Below are positions 21,552 to 29,796 of a stretch of DNA of 64,000 bases, piece by piece. A program made the translations under genes and the position numbers. Each line of letters begins with the position of its first letter. Positions within the stretch are counted from its first letter, which is position 1. Location of the stretch: the NCBI RefSeq assembly GCF_002119525.1, contig NZ_CP017917.1, positions 620,001 through 684,000 of the forward strand. Direction: 5' to 3'. This DNA is from Vibrio syngnathi. GTDB taxonomy: Bacteria; Pseudomonadota; Gammaproteobacteria; Enterobacterales; Vibrionaceae. The notes beneath the pieces are model-generated. The model had not been told where the DNA came from. It did no database searches and saw only the letters and a list, made by a program, of their open reading frames with translations.

Positions 21552-23579
21552 TTAAACCGCGATTTCTCCGCCGTCTTCACGACGAATCACTACGGTAGAT
21601 GCTCTTGGGCGAACATTGCCTTGAGTCTGTGCGGTCGCATCTTCTGACGATGGCCAGTTAGCTGGATGTTGAATGTTCACAAACAGTGATTTGTAATCTG
21701 GGCTAATGGTAAAGCCAGTCACTTCACAACCGTTTGGACCAACAAAGAAGCGTTTGAGCTGTGCTTGGTTGTTTGCATCAATCACCGCGCTGTTGCCGTT
21801 GTCATCCGTTAACTGGGACGGAACCACTGCCAGCATTTGGTCATTGGTGTAGCCCGTTACTTCATCTGCGCCGTTATCAGTCTGAATCCACAAGATGCCA
21901 CGAGCATCAAACGCTAAGCCGTCAGGGCTCGCGAACTGGTTCATGTCTGTTAGACCCGAGCGGTTAATAGACTTGTCTTCCACTGCTGGAGAACCGAAGA
22001 CAAAGATATCCCAATCGAATTCACCTGCGGTTTTGCCTTCATCCCAACGAATAACATGACCGAATTTGTTGTTTACGCGAGGGTTTGCTGAGTTCGCTTC
22101 TTTACGCTTGTTGTTATTCGTCAACGTTAGGTAAGCCGTACCTGTCATCGGGTCAACAGAGCACCATTCAGGGCGATCCATTGGCGTTGCACCAACAAGG
22201 TCGGCTGCGCCTGCTGTATTGATGATAAGCGCTGCTTGAGAGTCAAATGCATCACCTAGCTTGCCGCCGTTTGTAGTCTTGCTGCTCAGAGTCAGTGGTA
22301 GCCAAGTACCTGAACCATCATCATTGAACTTAGCCACATACAGCGTGCCTTTATCCATGTACTTGTCACCCGCACTTAGGCGATTGCTCGGCTCTGTATC
22401 ACGCGGGTCCCATTTCTCTTCAGAAACGAATTTGTACAGGTATTCAAAGCGAGAATCGTGACCAGAGTAGAACACGATTGGCTCGCCTTCGGCCAACTTA
22501 CCAAACGTACAGCCTTCATGGCGGAAACAACCCAGTGCAGAACGTTTTTTAGCGCGAGAGTTAGCTGTGTATGGGTCGATTTCAACAATGTAGCCGTGAC
22601 CATGTGCTTCGTTACGGTAGTCATCCATTGCTGACTCACCTGTTGGTGTCACGTCAAAGCGTGCAAACTCGTCTAAGCGTTCTTGTTTGTTACCTGAAAG
22701 CGTATCCCAACCGTAACGTGTTTTGTCGGTTGCGATACCAATACGTTCTTGAGCTGGCGTTGTCTCGCCTTTGTTCACGAAATAACCCGGCCAGTTCTCT
22801 TCACACGTTAGGTAAGTGCCCCATGGCGTGTAGCCGTTACCACAGTTGTTCAGTGTGCCACGAGCTTGGCTGCCGTCTTGCGAGAACTTGGTCTTGGTAA
22901 ATTCACTGTGAGCAACAGGACCAGACAGATCCATTACTGTAGCGCCCGTGTAGCGGCGATTCAGTGGATCGTTATCGACCATCACCCATTGATTATCTTC
23001 AAGCCTAACGCGAACCACACTCACGCCGTGCGCGTTGATCTCTTTACGTACTTCATCAAGGCTAGGGCGGTTGCCTTCATCGTATGTTGGACCATTAGCG
23101 TGCAGCGCTTTTTGGTCGATGTATTCGTGGTTGATCACCAACAAGCCATCATTGCTGTTGCCATTAAGTGGGAAGAAGTGCATGCCATCGTGATGCATGC
23201 CTAATGCGTTGGCTTGATCTTGTGCATTGTTGGCGCCGTCTTTTAACCAAGCATTGCCTTGCTTGTTAAGCGGAGTCCCCCAAGGAACCAGAACTTGTGC
23301 CGTGTAACCTTTTGGTACGACTACGCTGTCTGTCAATGAGCCTTTAACCGATTCGAAGGCAAGTGTTGCAGTGCTTTTTTGTGCGCCTGTTGCTTGCATT
23401 GTCGCAGCGTTAGCGGTGCTGTGGCCTGCTAAACCAAACGCGCCAAATGCGGTCATTGCACTGATGCCTAAACCGCCTTTCAGAACGTTTCTTCTTGAAA
23501 GGTTCGCATCTAGAACTTCTTCGAAGGGCTTGTTGTTACTCTTGTTAAAACGAGTGCTATCAAATGTTTCCTTGCTCAT
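21552..23579 (-). CDS. phoX: PhoX-family alkaline phosphatase, Tat-exported
   Basis: A 675-residue secreted phosphomonoesterase of the PhoX (DUF839) family, iron-calcium enzymes that release phosphate from organic phosphates. The N-terminus has a twin-arginine signal (SRRNVLKGG, residues 28-36, then a hydrophobic run ending ANA), as expected for a cofactor-loaded exported enzyme. The body shows family stretches such as NNCGNGYTPWGTYLTCEEN, GHGYIVEIDP and DNGADEVTG. Length is normal. A Pho-box-like sequence lies about 100-120 bases upstream. Its metal ligands were not individually assigned. Confidence 0.92.
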   Translation of the reverse strand: MSKETFDSTRFNKSNNKPFEEVLDANLSRRNVLKGGLGISAMTAFGAFGLAGHSTANAATMQATGAQKSTATLAFESVKGSLTDSVVVPKGYTAQVLVPWGTPLNKQGNAWLKDGANNAQDQANALGMHHDGMHFFPLNGNSNDGLLVINHEYIDQKALHANGPTYDEGNRPSLDEVRKEINAHGVSVVRVRLEDNQWVMVDNDPLNRRYTGATVMDLSGPVAHSEFTKTKFSQDGSQARGTLNNCGNGYTPWGTYLTCEENWPGYFVNKGETTPAQERIGIATDKTRYGWDTLSGNKQERLDEFARFDVTPTGESAMDDYRNEAHGHGYIVEIDPYTANSRAKKRSALGCFRHEGCTFGKLAEGEPIVFYSGHDSRFEYLYKFVSEEKWDPRDTEPSNRLSAGDKYMDKGTLYVAKFNDDGSGTWLPLTLSSKTTNGGKLGDAFDSQAALIINTAGAADLVGATPMDRPEWCSVDPMTGTAYLTLTNNNKRKEANSANPRVNNKFGHVIRWDEGKTAGEFDWDIFVFGSPAVEDKSINRSGLTDMNQFASPDGLAFDARGILWIQTDNGADEVTGYTNDQMLAVVPSQLTDDNGNSAVIDANNQAQLKRFFVGPNGCEVTGFTISPDYKSLFVNIQHPANWPSSEDATAQTQGNVRPRASTVVIRREDGGEIAV

Positions 23580-23680
23580 CGGGACTGCTTCCTATTGGCT
23601 GACTTTATTATTCGTTATTCATGATTCGCCCAGTTATCAACTAATGAGTTAATAAGTTGGGTCAATGTGTGACCAATCGT

Positions 23681-23698
23681 GAAGCAGTTAAGTGACAG
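23681..23698 (-). promoter_or_regulatory. Pho-box-like site upstream of phoX
   Basis: Read on the minus strand: CTGTCAC-TTAA-CTGCTTC, two 7-base direct repeats in the 11-base period of PhoB boxes. The first repeat matches CTGTCAT in six of seven positions, the second only partly. Confidence 0.5.
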
Positions 23699-23833
23699 AT
23701 TTTTATAGTTTTGATTAAGGTTTTGTTTCTGTAGCACGACTTTTGCCATTAAGCGTCTCGTGTAATACAAAACTCTTGGGGATCAGCAAGGAACTGTGTA
23801 TAAATGCTTTATCAAACGAAAAGAGAGACAGTT

Positions 23834-24175
23834 ATGAAATTAGATAAAATCGAAAACAAAAATCGCCGCCTACGCAAGAAGTTATACCTAGGTGAATTCG
23901 CTATTTTAGGTTTTGAAGTAAGCTGCACGACTTCGATTGCTGATTTTGACCAATACGATGTGTTCATCGATGAATTTATCGATTTTATCGACAGCATCGG
24001 CCTGTGTTTTGGCGGCGGTGGTTTAGAGCTGTTCGAAGGTTTCTTATGTTCTATTGAGCGCTACCGTTCAGTGACAGAAGCAGAGCAACTGCAAGTAGCG
24101 CAGTGGCTTGAAGCTCGCGCAGAAGTAAGCAAAGTTGAAGTAAGCGAACTTGTTGACGCAAACTACGCATTCTAA
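23834..24175 (+). CDS. yggL: YggL-family ribosome-associated protein
   Basis: A 113-residue acidic protein of the YggL (DUF469) family, reported to bind the 50S ribosomal subunit. Typical features: the basic start ENKNRRLRKKLYLGEF, the central FDQYDVFIDEFIDFIDSIGL and the glycine-rich GLCFGGGG. I start at the ATG at 23834, preceded by AGAGAGA; an upstream frame to 23804 would add ten unrelated residues. Single gene, followed by a strong terminator about 70 bases on. Confidence 0.9.
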   Translation: MKLDKIENKNRRLRKKLYLGEFAILGFEVSCTTSIADFDQYDVFIDEFIDFIDSIGLCFGGGGLELFEGFLCSIERYRSVTEAEQLQVAQWLEARAEVSKVEVSELVDANYAF

Positions 24176-24246
24176 ATTGGTGTTGTTCGGCTAGCTCAGT
24201 TGGAAGCGAATAGAGTCTTCCTGAGAGAAGCTTTATACATCAGTGA

Positions 24247-24279
24247 AAGGCCCAGTCGGTATATCGATTGGGCCTTTTT
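24247..24279 (+). terminator. terminator of yggL
   Basis: Stem AAAGGCCCAGTCG/CGATTGGGCCTTT (one G-U) with T-run. Confidence 0.85.
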
Positions 24280-24430
24280 GCGTTTGGTCTACGCTATTCT
24301 AGAACCATGGTTCCTTGTGTAACTCTCATTTTTATAACGAGAGTTTCTAATTATGTATCAGTCTTTTATGTCTGTTTTTTCTGGATGGTAAGAAGTTTGA
24401 ATAAACTTGTGAGAGTTTTATGAGAATTCA

Positions 24431-24571
24431 ATGAAGTTGCTGATAGATTTGATCGCCATTCTTAGAGTCAACAACACCACAATTCGTTCTGGTAAAGGTA
24501 ACGGTATATCGCTGTTACTCGTTTTGTTGGCAACGATAGGACTCGATAAAGGATGGAATCAAAATGAATAA
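24431..24571 (+). CDS. possible 46-residue peptide overlapping the first spondin gene
   Basis: An ATG-started frame encodes 46 residues with two hydrophobic patches (LLIDLIAIL and ISLLLVLLATIGL) and ends in a TAA that overlaps the start of the spondin gene by eight bases in another frame. Such an overlap would allow translational coupling. The ribosome-binding site is weak and I know no homologue, so it may be chance. Confidence 0.25.
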   Translation: MKLLIDLIAILRVNNTTIRSGKGNGISLLLVLLATIGLDKGWNQNE

Positions 24572-25247
24572 ACGTACTCAAATCAGCTTAGTGATCAGCT
24601 CGGCTATGTTGGCCTTCGGAGCGGCTCAAGTTCAGGCTGCTGAGCTTGAAGTCACTGTCACTAATGCAACGAAAGGGATCTACTTTACGCCTATCTTGGC
24701 AGCCGCTCATGACTCCAGCTTGTTCATGTTTAGAACGGGTGAGAGTGCTTCTGCGGAATTGGAATCGATGGCCGAAGGTGGCGATATTTCAGGTCTATCG
24801 AGTTTGATTGCAAACGCGGGTGGTGTGGTGGTTGAAAACCCAGCTACCGGTATTCTCAATCCGGGCATCGCAACTACGTTTGATATCGACACTGGTGATT
24901 TAGCTTACTTGTCATTGGGTGCAATGCTGCTGCCAACCAACGACGGTTTTGTTGGCTTAGACAGTTGGAAAATCCCAACTCAAGCGGGCACCTACAAAGC
25001 GACCCTCAATGGCTATGACGCAGGCACTGAAGCGAATGATGAGTTGGCTGGCAGCATGCCAAACCCGCCATTTATTACCTTTGGTGCTAGTGGTACGGGA
25101 GTTGAAACTGCAGTGTCAAACGCTAAGGTTCATATTCATCCGGGTAACATCGGTGATAGTAACGCGGCTGGCGGAATCAGCGACCTTGATAGTAGCAGTC
25201 ATCGTTGGTTAAACCCTGTGGCTACTATCACTATTGTTGTGAAGTAA
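24564..25247 (+). CDS. secreted spondin-domain protein
   Basis: A 227-residue protein with a signal peptide (cleavage probably after AQVQA, residue 25) and a single spondin-like domain: it begins with LEVTVTNATKGIYFTPI, has HDSSLFMFRTGESAS and LAEGG-like MAEGGD, and ends in HRWLNPVATITI. Spondin domains in bacteria are secreted folds of unclear function, sometimes binding metal or surface partners. The next gene, ten bases on, encodes a diverged copy, and a two-component system follows on the same strand. Function unknown. Confidence 0.82.
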   Translation: MNKRTQISLVISSAMLAFGAAQVQAAELEVTVTNATKGIYFTPILAAAHDSSLFMFRTGESASAELESMAEGGDISGLSSLIANAGGVVVENPATGILNPGIATTFDIDTGDLAYLSLGAMLLPTNDGFVGLDSWKIPTQAGTYKATLNGYDAGTEANDELAGSMPNPPFITFGASGTGVETAVSNAKVHIHPGNIGDSNAAGGISDLDSSSHRWLNPVATITIVVK

Positions 25248-25256
25248 GGGGGATGT

Positions 25257-25937
25257 ATGAAAGCTAGAATTCTATTTATCGCTGCATCAGTAGCTGTGTT
25301 AGCAGGTTGTCCGGACGATGACGACGATTACTATCGCTATGATGTGAGTGTGACTAACCTCACCCCCAATCAACCTATGTCGCCCCTCGCGGTATTGACT
25401 CACAATAATACCTTCAACTTGTTTGAAGTCGGGCAAAGTGCCTCGGTCGATCTTGAATACTTAGCGGAAGGTGGCAGTAATGCACAATTGCTTGCACTCA
25501 GTGGCAGTGACGCCAATGTTTATCAAGGCATCTCTGGCAATGGACTGATTCTTTCTGGTGAAAGCGACACTGTTTCAATCCGTGTCAATCCTAACCAAGA
25601 AGACTACCTCTCCGTCGCTTCCATGTTGGTGAACACTAATGATGCGTTTGTTGGTGAATCCGGTTTGTCGCTCAAGTCATTAGCGGTGGGTGACACCTTC
25701 GTCATGAAAATGAATGTTTGGGATTCAGGAACGGAATTGAACGTCGAGCTTGCTGCAACGATTCCGGGGCCTGCCGGTGGTGGTGAAGGCTTTAACACTG
25801 CAAGAAATGACACGGATGTAGTGAGTTTCCATGCAGGCGTAATAAGCCAAGATGATGGCCTGACGACGTCGACACTAAGTGGCAACCACCGCTTCCTTAA
25901 CCCAGGCGCAAGAATCACTATTACTCGAACTGAATAA
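25257..25937 (+). CDS. spondin-domain lipoprotein, paralogue of its neighbour
   Basis: A 226-residue protein with lipobox LAGC (Cys18) followed by an acidic run PDDDDD, then a spondin-like domain. It aligns with the upstream protein along its length: VTNLTPNQPMSPL, HNNTFNLFEVGQSAS, YLAEGG, NDAFVG, HRFLNPGARITI. The pair therefore arose by tandem duplication and then split into a soluble and a lipid-anchored form. Aspartates after the lipidated cysteine may affect sorting. Operon with the upstream gene (GGGGGA ribosome-binding site). Confidence 0.82.
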   Translation: MKARILFIAASVAVLAGCPDDDDDYYRYDVSVTNLTPNQPMSPLAVLTHNNTFNLFEVGQSASVDLEYLAEGGSNAQLLALSGSDANVYQGISGNGLILSGESDTVSIRVNPNQEDYLSVASMLVNTNDAFVGESGLSLKSLAVGDTFVMKMNVWDSGTELNVELAATIPGPAGGGEGFNTARNDTDVVSFHAGVISQDDGLTTSTLSGNHRFLNPGARITITRTE

Positions 25938-26019
25938 TAGGGTTGAAAGCACGATGAAATAATTCCTGTTCTGTTCCGGTCAATTGAAAGGTGGGTAGAC
26001 TCCGAATAGAGCAGGGATC

Positions 26020-26751
26020 ATGAATAATGCTGCGGTAAATTTGATGGCAAACATATTGTTGATTGAAGACGATGATGACTTAGCTGAACTGGTGAAGATG
26101 CATCTTAAGTTCCAAGGCCATGACGTAATCAGGACCAATGTGATTGAAAAGGCTCAGGCGCTCTATGAAGATGGTCATTTCGATTTGATCGTACTGGATC
26201 GTGGCTTACCAGACGGTGATGGACTCGATTTTTGTCGAATGTTACGTCAGCAAGAGGACTGGACACCTGTATTGATGCTGACGGCAAGAGATGCGGAGCT
26301 AGATAAGGTGTCAGGTTTAGAAGCTGGTGTTGATGACTACATAACGAAACCTTTCAGCGTTCTTGAATTTCAAGCAAGAGTGAGGAACGTACTTCGCCGT
26401 TTAAGCCATGTTGAATCAGCGACTCAAGAGGTTGTGACAGCAGAATCAACTATGAATTTTGGCGGGCTCATTATTCAACCTGAACGCCATCAGGTGTCAC
26501 TCAATAATCAAGACGTACCGCTGACTGCTACCGAGTTTACCTTGCTTCATTTCTTAGCAACCCGCCCGGGACGTGTGTATAGCAAAGACGAGCTGCTCGA
26601 TCATGTTTGGAATACTCATCACTCTGGCTATCACCATACCGTCTGTAGCACAGTCAACCGCTTAAGAACCAAGCTTGCGATGCCGAATAGCGATGATGAT
26701 TTTATCAAAACCGTTTGGGGTGTTGGCTATAAGTTTGAGTCAAAAGCTTAG
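26020..26751 (+). CDS. OmpR-family response regulator
   Basis: A 243-residue two-component regulator: receiver domain with acidic cluster EDDDD, phosphoacceptor in VLDRGLPDGDG, TARD and the KPF lysine; then a winged-helix DNA-binding domain (TATEFTLLHFLATRPGRVYSKDELLDHVW). Two starts are possible, the ATG at 26020 after GCAGGG and the ATG at 26044; the first has the better ribosome-binding site. It lies 82 bases after the spondin pair and directly before its kinase, so the spondin genes are plausible targets or inputs. Confidence 0.95.
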   Translation: MNNAAVNLMANILLIEDDDDLAELVKMHLKFQGHDVIRTNVIEKAQALYEDGHFDLIVLDRGLPDGDGLDFCRMLRQQEDWTPVLMLTARDAELDKVSGLEAGVDDYITKPFSVLEFQARVRNVLRRLSHVESATQEVVTAESTMNFGGLIIQPERHQVSLNNQDVPLTATEFTLLHFLATRPGRVYSKDELLDHVWNTHHSGYHHTVCSTVNRLRTKLAMPNSDDDFIKTVWGVGYKFESKA

Positions 26752-26817
26752 GTCTATGTGTCGCGTCCTAAGTTAACTAAAAGGCCAGTAAGGCCTACGA
26801 GTCATCGAGGAGAAAAC

Positions 26818-28191
26818 ATGAGTTTCAAATCGCATTTAGTGCTGTTCACAAGCTTGTGGTTTCTACTCGTGAGTGTGGTGATTGCTTACACCTATCATTG
26901 GCAAAAAGAGACCATAGAACAAAGAACCAAGCAGAGCTTACATAAAGAGCTCGCGGTGCATATGCGTGATGATAATCCTCTCATGATTGGGACCGACTAC
27001 AACCCCAAAGCACTCAAATCTATATTCCATACCTTGATGTTGATAGGGCCAGATTTCGATATCTATTTTCTTGATAGTCAGGGCAATATTACGACTCATG
27101 CTGCACCGGAAGGCACTGTGTTAGCGAATCAGATAGACCTAGCACCCATTCAACAGTTCTTAAACGACGAGCCATATCCCATTTTGGGCGAAGACCCGAT
27201 CAACCCAGGCTATCCTAAAGTATTTTCTGTGGCGGCGATTGCAGAGTTAGGTTCAACCGTGGGGTATTTGTATGTGGTGATTGGCAGTAATCGCCATACT
27301 GTAATCACCAACTCTCAGGTTGATACGCCATATATTGCGCTAGCAGGGCTTGTTCTGGTTTCTATCTTGGGCTTTGCAATTGGTGCGTATCTGTTAGTGA
27401 AACGCAGTTTGTTGAACCCAATAGAGGCGGTAACCAATAAATTGCAGCAACAAGCTGAACAAGACTTTCGATTGGAACCTAACTTTGTCCATCAAGTCCC
27501 AGAATTAGTGCCTATTGCGCGTTCTTATCAATTGATGGCGAAACACATTCAACAACAATTCTTGCAGCTTGAGTATCAGTCATCACACCGTAGACAAAGC
27601 TTATTACAGCTCAGTCATGATTTGAAAACGCCACTGTCGAGTGTGTTGGGTTATCTAGAAACGTGGAAGATTAAAAATCCGAAGTCAGACCCGCTGATTG
27701 ACGTCGCTTACCGTAATGGCAACAAGTTGTCTGAACAGCTCCATTCACTACTCGATAGCGCCAAGAATGATAATCCTGTGCCTACATATCAATACGCTTC
27801 AATCGATTTCAATATGTTGATGAACGAATGCTTGGAAACGATACAAAGCCAGTATCGCCACAAGAATGTTGAGTTGAACGTCAATATGCCTCAAGGAATC
27901 AAGGCTGTAGGTGATGGTGATTTGCTTGAGAGGCTGATCTTGAATCTGCTAGATAATGCGTTGAGGCATAGCCCGAGCGGAACAATGGTGTCGTTAGATG
28001 TAGGTTTAGAATCGGATTCAAAACGGGTGAAGGTCGTTATCCATAATGAAGTTGAACTAGAAGCACCTAATGGTTCGTTAGGTATTGGCACCAAAATCGC
28101 TCAGTCGATACTGATGTTGCATCATAGCGTGTTAGAAACAACAAAGGCAGAGAACTCATTTCAGCAAAGTTTCTACTTGCCTTCGGTATAG
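26818..28191 (+). CDS. sensor histidine kinase
   Basis: A 457-residue inner-membrane kinase: membrane segment 1 (about 7-25), a 145-residue periplasmic sensor region with no family I recognise, membrane segment 2 (about 172-194), a HAMP-like linker, the phosphoacceptor His267 in LSHDLKTPLSS, and an ATP-binding domain (LNLLDNALRHS). The glycine boxes are weakly conserved (NGSLGIGTKIAQSI). I start at the ATG at 26818 after GAGGAGAA; the frame is open to a GTG at 26758. Cognate to the regulator just upstream. Confidence 0.93.
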   Translation: MSFKSHLVLFTSLWFLLVSVVIAYTYHWQKETIEQRTKQSLHKELAVHMRDDNPLMIGTDYNPKALKSIFHTLMLIGPDFDIYFLDSQGNITTHAAPEGTVLANQIDLAPIQQFLNDEPYPILGEDPINPGYPKVFSVAAIAELGSTVGYLYVVIGSNRHTVITNSQVDTPYIALAGLVLVSILGFAIGAYLLVKRSLLNPIEAVTNKLQQQAEQDFRLEPNFVHQVPELVPIARSYQLMAKHIQQQFLQLEYQSSHRRQSLLQLSHDLKTPLSSVLGYLETWKIKNPKSDPLIDVAYRNGNKLSEQLHSLLDSAKNDNPVPTYQYASIDFNMLMNECLETIQSQYRHKNVELNVNMPQGIKAVGDGDLLERLILNLLDNALRHSPSGTMVSLDVGLESDSKRVKVVIHNEVELEAPNGSLGIGTKIAQSILMLHHSVLETTKAENSFQQSFYLPSV

Positions 28192-28224
28192 TTCTGTCTG
28201 CCTTCGATTCGGAGATATTCGAGT

Positions 28225-28680
28225 CTAACCGTTTTCTTTACCTTCATTTACCTCAGCATAGAAGTGCAGCAACTCTGTGAGCTCTTTTACCCAACCAAAT
28301 GCTTCTGTGGGTGCTTTCAACAAAATCTTCTCGACTTTGTCACAGTGAATTTCAAGGCTGATCGCTTGCTCAAGGTTGAACGACATTGCATAAAAGTGCC
28401 AAAGCAATAGCCGAGTCATGCGTTCGATGTTTTGTTGTGAGTTATCCGACTCACTAAACGCAAGATTCACTTCACTCAGCGCGATTGCAGTCATTCGAAG
28501 CATCGCATCAAACTTCGCTGATTGCATACGCTCTTCATTGGTCACTTCTTCCTGTTCGAACGTAAACAGTTCCGTCATTGCATCTTCAGGGACAAGGCGA
28601 TGAATCATTCTTAAACTAAATTCTTCTAGTTCTTCACGAGGCATGTTGTTTAAGCAAGTTAAAGTGTAATCGCGTTGCAT
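28225..28680 (-). CDS. hypothetical helical protein
   Basis: A 151-residue, acidic, apparently all-helical soluble protein with no signal peptide, membrane segment or motif I recognise. Leucine- and methionine-rich helices (IERMTRLLLWHFYAMSF, ELTELLHFYAEV) suggest an oligomer or binding partner. The ATG at 28680 follows AAGAGA and is preferred to an upstream TTG. It converges with the histidine kinase gene and stands alone. Probably a Vibrio-specific gene. Confidence 0.65.
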   Translation of the reverse strand: MQRDYTLTCLNNMPREELEEFSLRMIHRLVPEDAMTELFTFEQEEVTNEERMQSAKFDAMLRMTAIALSEVNLAFSESDNSQQNIERMTRLLLWHFYAMSFNLEQAISLEIHCDKVEKILLKAPTEAFGWVKELTELLHFYAEVNEGKENG

Positions 28681-28750
28681 GGTGTTCTCTTGGATCTGCA
28701 AAAAGGTCGGACAGTTTAATGGAGAAGCGAGTTCAGAAAAAGCAGATTTT

Positions 28751-28812
28751 AGATAAGCCTACGTTTGTGGGCTTATCTGTGTACTACAAGCCCTAAGATC
28801 GATGCTTAGGGC
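28751..28812. other. two consecutive hairpins downstream of the EamA gene
   Basis: AGATAAGCC/GGCTTATCT (28751-28778) and GCCCTAAG/CTTAGGGC (28790-28812). Neither has a proper T-tract. They may protect the 3' end of the transporter mRNA. Confidence 0.45.
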
Positions 28813-28836
28813 AACGGTACGTTGTTCAAACGCAGC

Positions 28837-29796
28837 TCAGGCTTTGCTATGGCTTGGCGGTTGATACTGCATAGACTTGTCATGCTTCATGAAAATGTTG
28901 CTCGCGACCAAGCTGCCGATGCAAATCGAACCAAGCGCTAACCAAGTTATCGTATCCGGAATTTCGTTGAACAGTGGGATCGCCAACAAGGTTGCAACAG
29001 CGGGTGTTGCACTGCCAAAAGCAGCAGAGCGCTCAGCCCCTAAAGTATTAACAGCATATAAATATGTGAATGCCGCGATTAAGCCGGCGCCCACACCTTG
29101 CACAGCTGAATGCACTGCAAGCTCAGTAACTGGCCATTGAGAAATTGGTGTGACCATCAAATGGCTAGGGAGGGTTCCTGTCATGATGAGGACCAGCAAT
29201 AGTAAAGTGGATCCGAATGAAATGAAACCTGCACTCACAAGTGCATTAAGATTGGCAACACGTGCTGAGATGGTAAAAGTCGCCCACATTAGGCTGCCAC
29301 ACAAAAACAACAAGTGACCTTTGGTGTATTCAAAGTTGAAGCTGGTTAGGCTACTTCCCAGAAACAAAAATATCCCAAGCAAAACCAGACCTAAACCAAC
29401 GACACGGTGTCGGCTGAGTGGCTGCTTAAAAAAGAGTACAGCGATCCCTGTTACGAACAGAGGAAGCGTTCCCGGAACCAAGGCGCTCCCGTGTGATACC
29501 GGAACAAACTGCATGGCTGTCCCTGCAACGAGTAAATAAGGCAACCCGCACCCAATGAACATACCGACCAAGTATCGACTTGGGACAGCTGCGATTGTAC
29601 TGCGTGCTTTCCACACCAAAGGCAATAGCACCAATGCAGGTATGAGGAATCGAGTCAGTGCGATGTCTGCAGGTGTTAAATCTGAGTTTGCGCCGCCTTT
29701 AAGAGAAAGGAAAAAGCTCGCCCAGATGAGCAGAGTGACAGTAATAGATAAATAGCCAAGCTTCATAATAAACAAGGAAAGTGGATGATGACTCAT
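28837..29796 (-). CDS. DMT-superfamily (EamA) transporter
   Basis: A membrane protein of about 319 residues with ten hydrophobic helices arranged as two EamA repeats (LTRFLIPALVLLPL in the first, AALGS-like AAFGSATPAVATLLAIPLFNE in the second). Members export amino acids, nucleotides or metabolites. The start is uncertain: ATG at 29796 or 29766, neither with a clear ribosome-binding site. It is divergent from an Lrp/AsnC regulator about 120 bases away, an arrangement typical of amino-acid exporters controlled by that regulator. Confidence 0.9.
   Translation of the reverse strand: MSHHPLSLFIMKLGYLSITVTLLIWASFFLSLKGGANSDLTPADIALTRFLIPALVLLPLVWKARSTIAAVPSRYLVGMFIGCGLPYLLVAGTAMQFVPVSHGSALVPGTLPLFVTGIAVLFFKQPLSRHRVVGLGLVLLGIFLFLGSSLTSFNFEYTKGHLLFLCGSLMWATFTISARVANLNALVSAGFISFGSTLLLLVLIMTGTLPSHLMVTPISQWPVTELAVHSAVQGVGAGLIAAFTYLYAVNTLGAERSAAFGSATPAVATLLAIPLFNEIPDTITWLALGSICIGSLVASNIFMKHDKSMQYQPPSHSKA

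Follow-up and report, generated by a model that had tools for sequence, protein, structure and literature searches.

Tandem spondin-domain genes as the candidate output of an adjoining two-component system in Vibrio syngnathi

Does a pair of exported spondin-domain proteins encoded beside a two-component system serve that system as its output, or does it present ligands to the kinase? The question is raised by a block of consecutive plus-strand genes in a 64,000-nucleotide stretch of Vibrio syngnathi DNA (assembly GCF_002119525.1, contig NZ_CP017917.1, forward-strand positions 620,001 to 684,000; hereafter the window, whose coordinates are used throughout). A preliminary description of the window had recognised two spondin-like proteins, one soluble and one lipid-anchored, followed on the same strand by a regulator and a kinase, and the open reading frames and domain matches confirm this layout, with genes for SpdA, SpdB, regulator and kinase in unbroken succession. 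From sequence comparison, we propose, at a probability of about 0.68, that the spondin pair is the main conserved output of the adjoining two-component system, which would answer oxidant or copper damage of the envelope. The features concerned are as follows.

24407..24450, plus strand: regulator box, four 11-bp direct repeats (TTGTGAGAGTT TTATGAGAATT CAATGAAGTTG CTGATAGATTT), the most conserved stretch upstream of SpdA
24457..24462, plus strand: −10-like element CATTCT (alignment block CATNCT, second base invariant; presumed −10 role)
24550..24556, plus strand: SpdA ribosome-binding site AGGATGG, read from the sequence (GGATGG in 26 of 27 aligned upstream regions, counted by eye)
24564..25247, plus strand: SpdA, secreted spondin-domain protein, 227 aa, with conserved carboxylates D127, D152 and E156 at the F-spondin Ca2+ site
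25257..25937, plus strand: SpdB, spondin-domain lipoprotein, 226 aa, with lipobox LAGC and Cys18 as read from the sequence
26020..26751, plus strand: OmpR/PhoB-type response regulator, 243 aa (Pfam Response_reg, Trans_reg_C)
26818..28191 (alternative start 26758), plus strand: histidine kinase (Pfam HisKA; degenerate HATPase_c)
26893..27363, plus strand: extracytoplasmic sensor domain, apparently of single-Cache/PAS type, with adjoining membrane-helix residues
28039..28092, plus strand: kinase region in which the G1 motif, F box and ATP lid would be expected but are absent (63-kinase alignment)

Conservation of the block and of its regulator box

Among 196 Vibrio genomes, the kinase (E 1e-60 or better) is present in 60, a Spond_N gene in 59 and both in 57, and the two lie within 3.5 kb of each other in 53 of these 57. 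The four exceptions comprise G039, whose pair falls on separate contigs, and G136, G165 and G172, which have a more distant kinase (40–41%) and an unlinked spondin. Across 369 gammaproteobacterial genomes, our own included, a spondin is found in 62, a match to a sensor-domain profile built from 38 sequences in 68, and both in 45 (Fisher p 1e-26, uncorrected for kinship; the sampled genomes are unevenly related, and all statistical tests treat them as independent). Spondin and sensor kinase are adjacent within 4.5 kb in 31 of the 45. Since three gene orders occur in the class (SpdA-SpdB-regulator-kinase, SpdA-regulator-kinase and regulator-kinase-spondin), the association has been rearranged more than once. 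Within 40 Vibrio loci, the block is flanked by phoX, yggL, eamA and lrp in L063–L066, L069 and the remnant L096, and has other surroundings elsewhere; in L096, from V. crassostreae, the flanks and the kinase end are kept while SpdA, SpdB, the regulator and the remaining half of the kinase are all gone. Among 72,556 plasmid records, the kinase (E 1e-40 or better) occurs in one, a 1.7-Mb Vibrio replicon. Judged by these comparisons, the four genes are a unit that travels together. The surveys in Vibrio and in the class reject chance adjacency, and the outcome that the preliminary description had named as refuting a link, rarity of the neighbourhood in related genomes, was not seen.

An alignment of 27 Vibrio sequences, the window among them, reveals four repeats in common upstream of SpdA and little else before the −10-like element. 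Direct repeats of 11 bp are of the kind bound by OmpR/PhoB-type regulators. A 22-base reference is matched at 18–22 positions in 26 of the 27 upstream regions; in the remaining one, L075, the repeats fall just outside the range scanned, in which nothing matches better than 12/22. The box 22-mer, with up to 3 mismatches allowed, has a single match in the whole V. syngnathi genome.

The periodicity extends beyond Vibrio. Upstream regions of 58 non-Vibrio spondin loci score 824 for period 11 versus 629–661 for periods 9, 10, 12 and 13, and 32 of them individually reach p 0.05 or less for period 11 against their own shuffles. The class-wide homologue of the box is GTGA-N7, with GTGA as its core. 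Counting as a box any coding-strand run of three GTGA units that lies no more than 250 bp upstream and has no more than one mismatch, we find one before 40 of the 58 loci (22/27 kinase-adjacent, 18/31 others), against a background of 4 matches in 1,130,724 positions. The spacing is specific: 40/58 loci match at spacing 11, 0–1 at spacings 7–10 and 12–16, and none on the other strand. The box precedes 36 of 43 spondin loci in kinase-bearing genomes versus 4 of 15 in kinase-less genomes (p 1e-4), and is present at 14 of 16 loci in which the genome's kinase is not adjacent; the three Vibrio genomes with an unlinked spondin have three GTGA units each. Because the box follows the presence of the kinase, also at non-adjacent spondins, the simplest reading is that the spondins are probably direct targets of the cognate regulator. 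Of the two roles offered in the preliminary description, that of output thus has good support from the promoter box, which is found also where kinase and spondin lie apart in the genome.

Other genes behind the box

Twenty further kinase loci were read, from 18 of the 23 kinase genomes lacking a spondin match and from G437, whose spondin lies elsewhere in the genome without a box. Thirteen of these carry a box that matches at 11 or 12 of 12 positions. In G206, G209, G282 and G406, the gene directly behind the box encodes an exported methionine-rich peptide (19–25% methionine beyond residue 25), and regulator and kinase come next. In G206, G306 and G423, the box precedes DUF1223 and then MsrAB (with a methionine-rich N-terminal part in G306 and G423); in G437 it precedes an MsrB whose leader is twin-arginine-like, in G435 a cysteine-containing EGxCG peptide with an MNIO enzyme, and in G548 and G556 the regulator itself. 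Msr genes are present in 8 of the 20 loci, in 6 families, a count that includes related genomes and is not one of independent cases.

A class-wide search for four units with up to one mismatch returns 81 of the 369 genomes, versus 15, counted by eye, for the pattern written backwards as a control. The exact four-unit box occurs in 24 genomes, of which 20 are kinase-bearing (p 9e-13), with three tandem-array genomes dropped; with these kept, the count is 20/27. From the sites listed, we selected 21 for reading. Four precede a gene of oxidant or metal type: a methionine-rich lipoprotein-like peptide in G437; a cysteine-rich peptide, an MNIO enzyme, a protein that we take to be DUF2063-like, and MsrA, in a row and away from the kinase, in G379 (L279:1-2650); a thioredoxin-like protein beside the kinase in G373; and MsrAB in G545. 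These four genomes do carry spondins, and in G413 (L216) the box, a spondin, MsrA and a contig-cut thioredoxin-like gene stand in one row.

Two further arrangements were seen among these loci. MsrAB is fused to a long methionine-rich repeat region at L225:7970-9292 and L229:2545-3894, which might unite a scavenger and the enzyme that repairs it in a single polypeptide. Behind the box in two bacterial families lies a family of small exported proteins (L239:3595-3948, L281:2439-2843), whose L281 member has no Pfam match.

We infer an envelope oxidant or copper response because the same box precedes exported methionine-rich peptides, MsrAB or MsrB of periplasmic type, DUF1223, a thioredoxin-like protein and, in some genomes, operons for MNIO peptides (bufferin-like), and we place the spondins in this defence because they appear to be regulated alike. 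The cognate regulator would bind the box at 24407..24450 and activate spdAB and, through the operon, possibly also itself. The pathway would respond to envelope damage by copper or by oxidants of a hypochlorite-like, methionine-oxidising kind, as suggested by relatives that mostly lack spondins, and SpdA and SpdB would serve in envelope defence as Ca2+-binding, C2-like proteins.

Several observations weigh against this proposal. The GTGA core was first noticed in the same upstream regions that were later counted, so that the 40/58 is not an independent count; the controls by spacing, strand and kinase presence, like the sites at other loci, come closer to independence. Seven of the 43 spondin loci in kinase-bearing genomes lack a box, five of them kinase-adjacent, and 4 of the 15 in kinase-less genomes have one (in one of these, L201, the contig ends just after the regulator). 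Two of the 14 boxed loci counted as not adjacent, G400 and G381, may be adjacent pairs split between contigs. Seven of the 20 further kinase loci have no box, and two of these belong to the 8 in which Msr genes are present. Among the 21 sites read, besides the 4 before an oxidant- or metal-type gene, 4 precede other exported proteins (G228, G238, G240, G459) and 13 precede neither, the latter including all six from kinase-less genomes. In V. syngnathi itself, the box occurs once in the genome and no Msr or methionine-rich gene is among the neighbours, so that for Vibrio the oxidant reading is drawn from distant relatives. Finally, the lid-less Vibrio kinases (see below) may fail to phosphorylate altogether.

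Spondins, regulator and lid-less kinase

Both spondins belong to the bacterial spondin family, matching Pfam Spond_N at 37.3 bits (SpdA) and 41.5 bits (SpdB; cut-off 24) and NCBIfam NF038123 at 203 and 191 bits, respectively (cut-off 40); a Spond_N search of the V. syngnathi genome returns these two only. The SpdA N-terminus reads as a signal peptide ending in AQA; this motif and the SpdB lipobox are the ones we take to be typical. SpdA and SpdB have 67 of 208 aligned residues in common, and distinct genes of A type and B type are spread over the gammaproteobacteria, so the duplication is old. The proteins match the fold of the F-spondin (FS) domain, and the residues that serve FS domains as Ca2+ ligands, in the PSPDW and DAGTD motifs, have counterparts in SpdA, so that Ca2+ binding is predicted. 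Specifically, D127, D152 and E156 are conserved in 137–139 of 140 sequences, and an alignment with mindin places them at its ligand positions. In two loci, L090 and L091 (genomes G187 and G130), the spondin is of another type that lies nearer to the generic Pfam profile (Spond_N, 174 and 145 bits); by eye, the start of the G130 spondin is seemingly split from the remainder by an inserted transposase-like gene.

The regulator has the receiver and winged helix of the OmpR/PhoB type (Response_reg 82.7 bits, Trans_reg_C 84.6 bits) and falls below the cut-off of every NCBIfam model among the matches listed (25 of 94). In particular, it is not PhoB proper (TIGR02154, 209 versus 296 bits), nor CpxR (156/341 bits), BaeR (165/380) or OmpR (165/331), and the kinase is likewise under the cut-offs for BaeS (67.5/603) and Legionella-type CpxA (47/800). 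The sensor region, which the preliminary description could not place in a known family, looks like a Cache/PAS-type domain, its model matching solved Cache/PAS sensors in fold; the earlier statement holds insofar as the window's own sensor alone matches no Pfam family, and a profile search of solved structures returned nothing significant for it (best E 0.22). An arginine of the sensor that is nearly invariant elsewhere (DPR) is isoleucine in the window (DPI, 27199–27201) and in four near relatives, perhaps reflecting a changed ligand.

The kinase has an intact HisKA domain with its H box (40.6 bits versus a 26.9 cut-off) and a HATPase_c match of 22.0 bits, below the 26.4 cut-off and confined to profile positions 1–44. 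The 63-kinase alignment shows that HisKA, H box and N box are intact in the Vibrio kinases and that the G1 motif, F box and lid, between the N and G2 boxes, are lost in 34 of 35 Vibrio loci (a count that takes in two pieces of broken kinases and one remnant), with Asn at the position of the G1 Asp; the sole Vibrio locus retaining DxGxG is L089. DxGxG[IF] is present in 25 of 28 non-Vibrio loci, the exceptions being L166 (NTGFGI, with lid), L182 (ending before the motif) and L183 (contig-cut, with no sequence there). HATPase_c scores are 21–25.5 bits in four lid-less kinases, 32.7 in L083 and 86–108 in five canonical kinases. Between the window and three near relatives, nonsynonymous divergence in the ATPase domain (dN) is 0.021–0.094 and synonymous divergence (dS) 0.19–1.77, so the domain is being kept under purifying selection. 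With the lid lost, the Vibrio regulator may be set mainly by the phosphatase side of the kinase or by another phosphodonor. A literature search on lid-less kinases found nothing related; lid-less yet conserved, these proteins are a natural case for asking if two-component signalling can operate when normal kinase activity is absent.

As to gene boundaries, the kinase more likely starts at ATG 26818, which has an AGGAGA ribosome site, than at GTG 26758. The preliminary description began the locus at 24431; the ATG there lies inside the regulator box, upstream of the putative transcription start, and is probably no gene start. We rejected a 46-codon frame at this position as a candidate small membrane protein: a frame of at least 30 codons from this ATG is open in 5 of the 27 aligned upstream regions (the window, L063–L065 and L098, where it continues into spdA). 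A tRNA-like fragment (GGCTAGCTCAGTTGG), possibly a relic, lies at 24180–24215, after yggL; ARAGORN called no tRNA there. Rfam returned nothing at gathering scores over 23500–28900, and a scan for sigma-70 promoters and terminators gave fewer matches than in shuffles.

Competing explanations and known systems

The output link could be right and the signal be copper or another soft metal, with methionine-rich peptides, MNIO peptides and spondins binding or buffering it, a possibility that we regard as real but clearly the lesser. It would account for the MNIO genes behind the box in G379 and G435, for bufferins being copper chelators (PMC12452194, from the available part of that paper), and for a weak Foldseek match between the sensor model and silver-bound CusS (E 6e-3); MsrA and MsrB are nevertheless the commonest recognisable partners at the further kinase loci, and the invariant sensor residues are, in our judgement, not those of a typical copper site. 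The FS fold with its conserved Ca2+ site would also suit adhesion or matrix proteins like animal FS domains, the F-spondin FS domain being Ca2+-binding and C2-like (PMC3117680, as far as the available text goes), with the system sensing surface, Ca2+ or envelope state; this is unlikely, for it leaves the box before Msr and methionine-rich genes in relatives unexplained. Somewhat less probable again is the other role offered in the preliminary description, that of accessory ligand-presenting proteins for the kinase, or a related role as its feedback proteins, for which LuxP with LuxQ and CpxP with CpxA are models: 23 of the 68 kinase genomes have no spondin match, and the spondins are therefore not required for sensing in general, and in 17 of the 62 spondin genomes the kinase goes unmatched, in some of them owing to gaps in the assembly.

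The upstream phoX in the window, and the resemblance of GTGA-N7 read backwards to the Pho box, itself an 11-bp direct repeat (TCAT-N7-TCAT), could mean that the box belongs to PhoB and that the spondins are Pho-regulon genes. One class-wide site (L283, among the 13 above) indeed precedes a PhoB-like regulator gene, as identified by eye. We consider this quite improbable: the orientation of the box relative to the gene is reversed, box presence tracks the cognate kinase whereas PhoB is near-universal, and phoX adjoins the block only in the six Vibrio loci named above. That the genes are chance neighbours with no functional link has next to no probability, being refuted by the neighbourhood surveys together with the box distribution, and nothing was found in its favour. 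Beyond the proposed output link, we offer tentatively, and at somewhat less than even odds, that bacterial spondin pairs form a hitherto unrecognised class of proteins defending the envelope against oxidants or copper, regulatorily interchangeable with methionine-rich scavenger peptides and periplasmic MsrAB, within an ancient gammaproteobacterial GTGA-N7 system whose Vibrio kinase, deprived of its ATP lid, would have altered autophosphorylation or none.

Literature searches found no account of the control or function of a spondin-regulator-kinase block, no described function for bacterial spondin-domain proteins, and nothing linking bacterial spondin operons with hypochlorous acid. Spondins occur in 62 of the 369 sampled genomes, and a box that tracks the kinase gives a handle on their purpose, linking them to genes of established function in repairing methionine and buffering metals. 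An envelope-protein gene is also first in the regulator's operon in oprH-phoP-phoQ and ygiW-qseB-qseC, which differ from our block in protein families, signals and boxes. MrpX of Azospira is reportedly (Melnyk, 2015) a methionine-rich periplasmic peptide acting with an Msr system against hypochlorous acid (HOCl). L-amino-acid oxidase, an enzyme that makes H2O2, is encoded with the spondins in Pseudoalteromonas luteoviolacea. There, two Spondin_N genes, an OmpR-type regulator and a kinase share one putative operon (PMC6316408), the same four-gene composition as in the window, so that the earlier statement that no pathway of this composition had been described was nearly right: the gene order had been drawn, without a function. 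That operon differs in also containing the oxidase and an indolepyruvate decarboxylase, and the available part of the paper gives neither function nor box.

F-spondin and mindin FS domains (3q13, 3d34) have the fold and the Ca2+-site carboxylates in common with SpdA and SpdB; the bacterial proteins differ in being single-domain and secreted or lipid-anchored, and in having Glu rather than Asp at the third Ca2+ ligand position. Regulated methionine-rich peptides and Msr enzymes constitute a hypochlorite or peroxide defence under other control, as described in the accessible portions of two papers (PMC8315932, PMC8550376). Brucella BcrS/BcrXQP is alike in pairing a regulated methionine-rich periplasmic peptide with an Msr system against HOCl, and differs in its control by an extracytoplasmic function (ECF) sigma factor, with no kinase and no spondins in the part available (PMC8315932). 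OrhK/OrhR of uropathogenic Escherichia coli, like YedVW-MsrPQ, is a two-component system that activates a periplasmic methionine-sulfoxide repair operon, and its peptide has been compared to MrpX; its targets, as those of YedVW, are MsrPQ-type enzymes, spondins going unmentioned in the available text (PMC8550376). An Msr or methionine-rich gene, as would be expected among the targets of a periplasmic methionine-oxidation response of HprSR/YedVW or OrhKR type, is seen behind the box in relatives, and none stands beside the block in the window.

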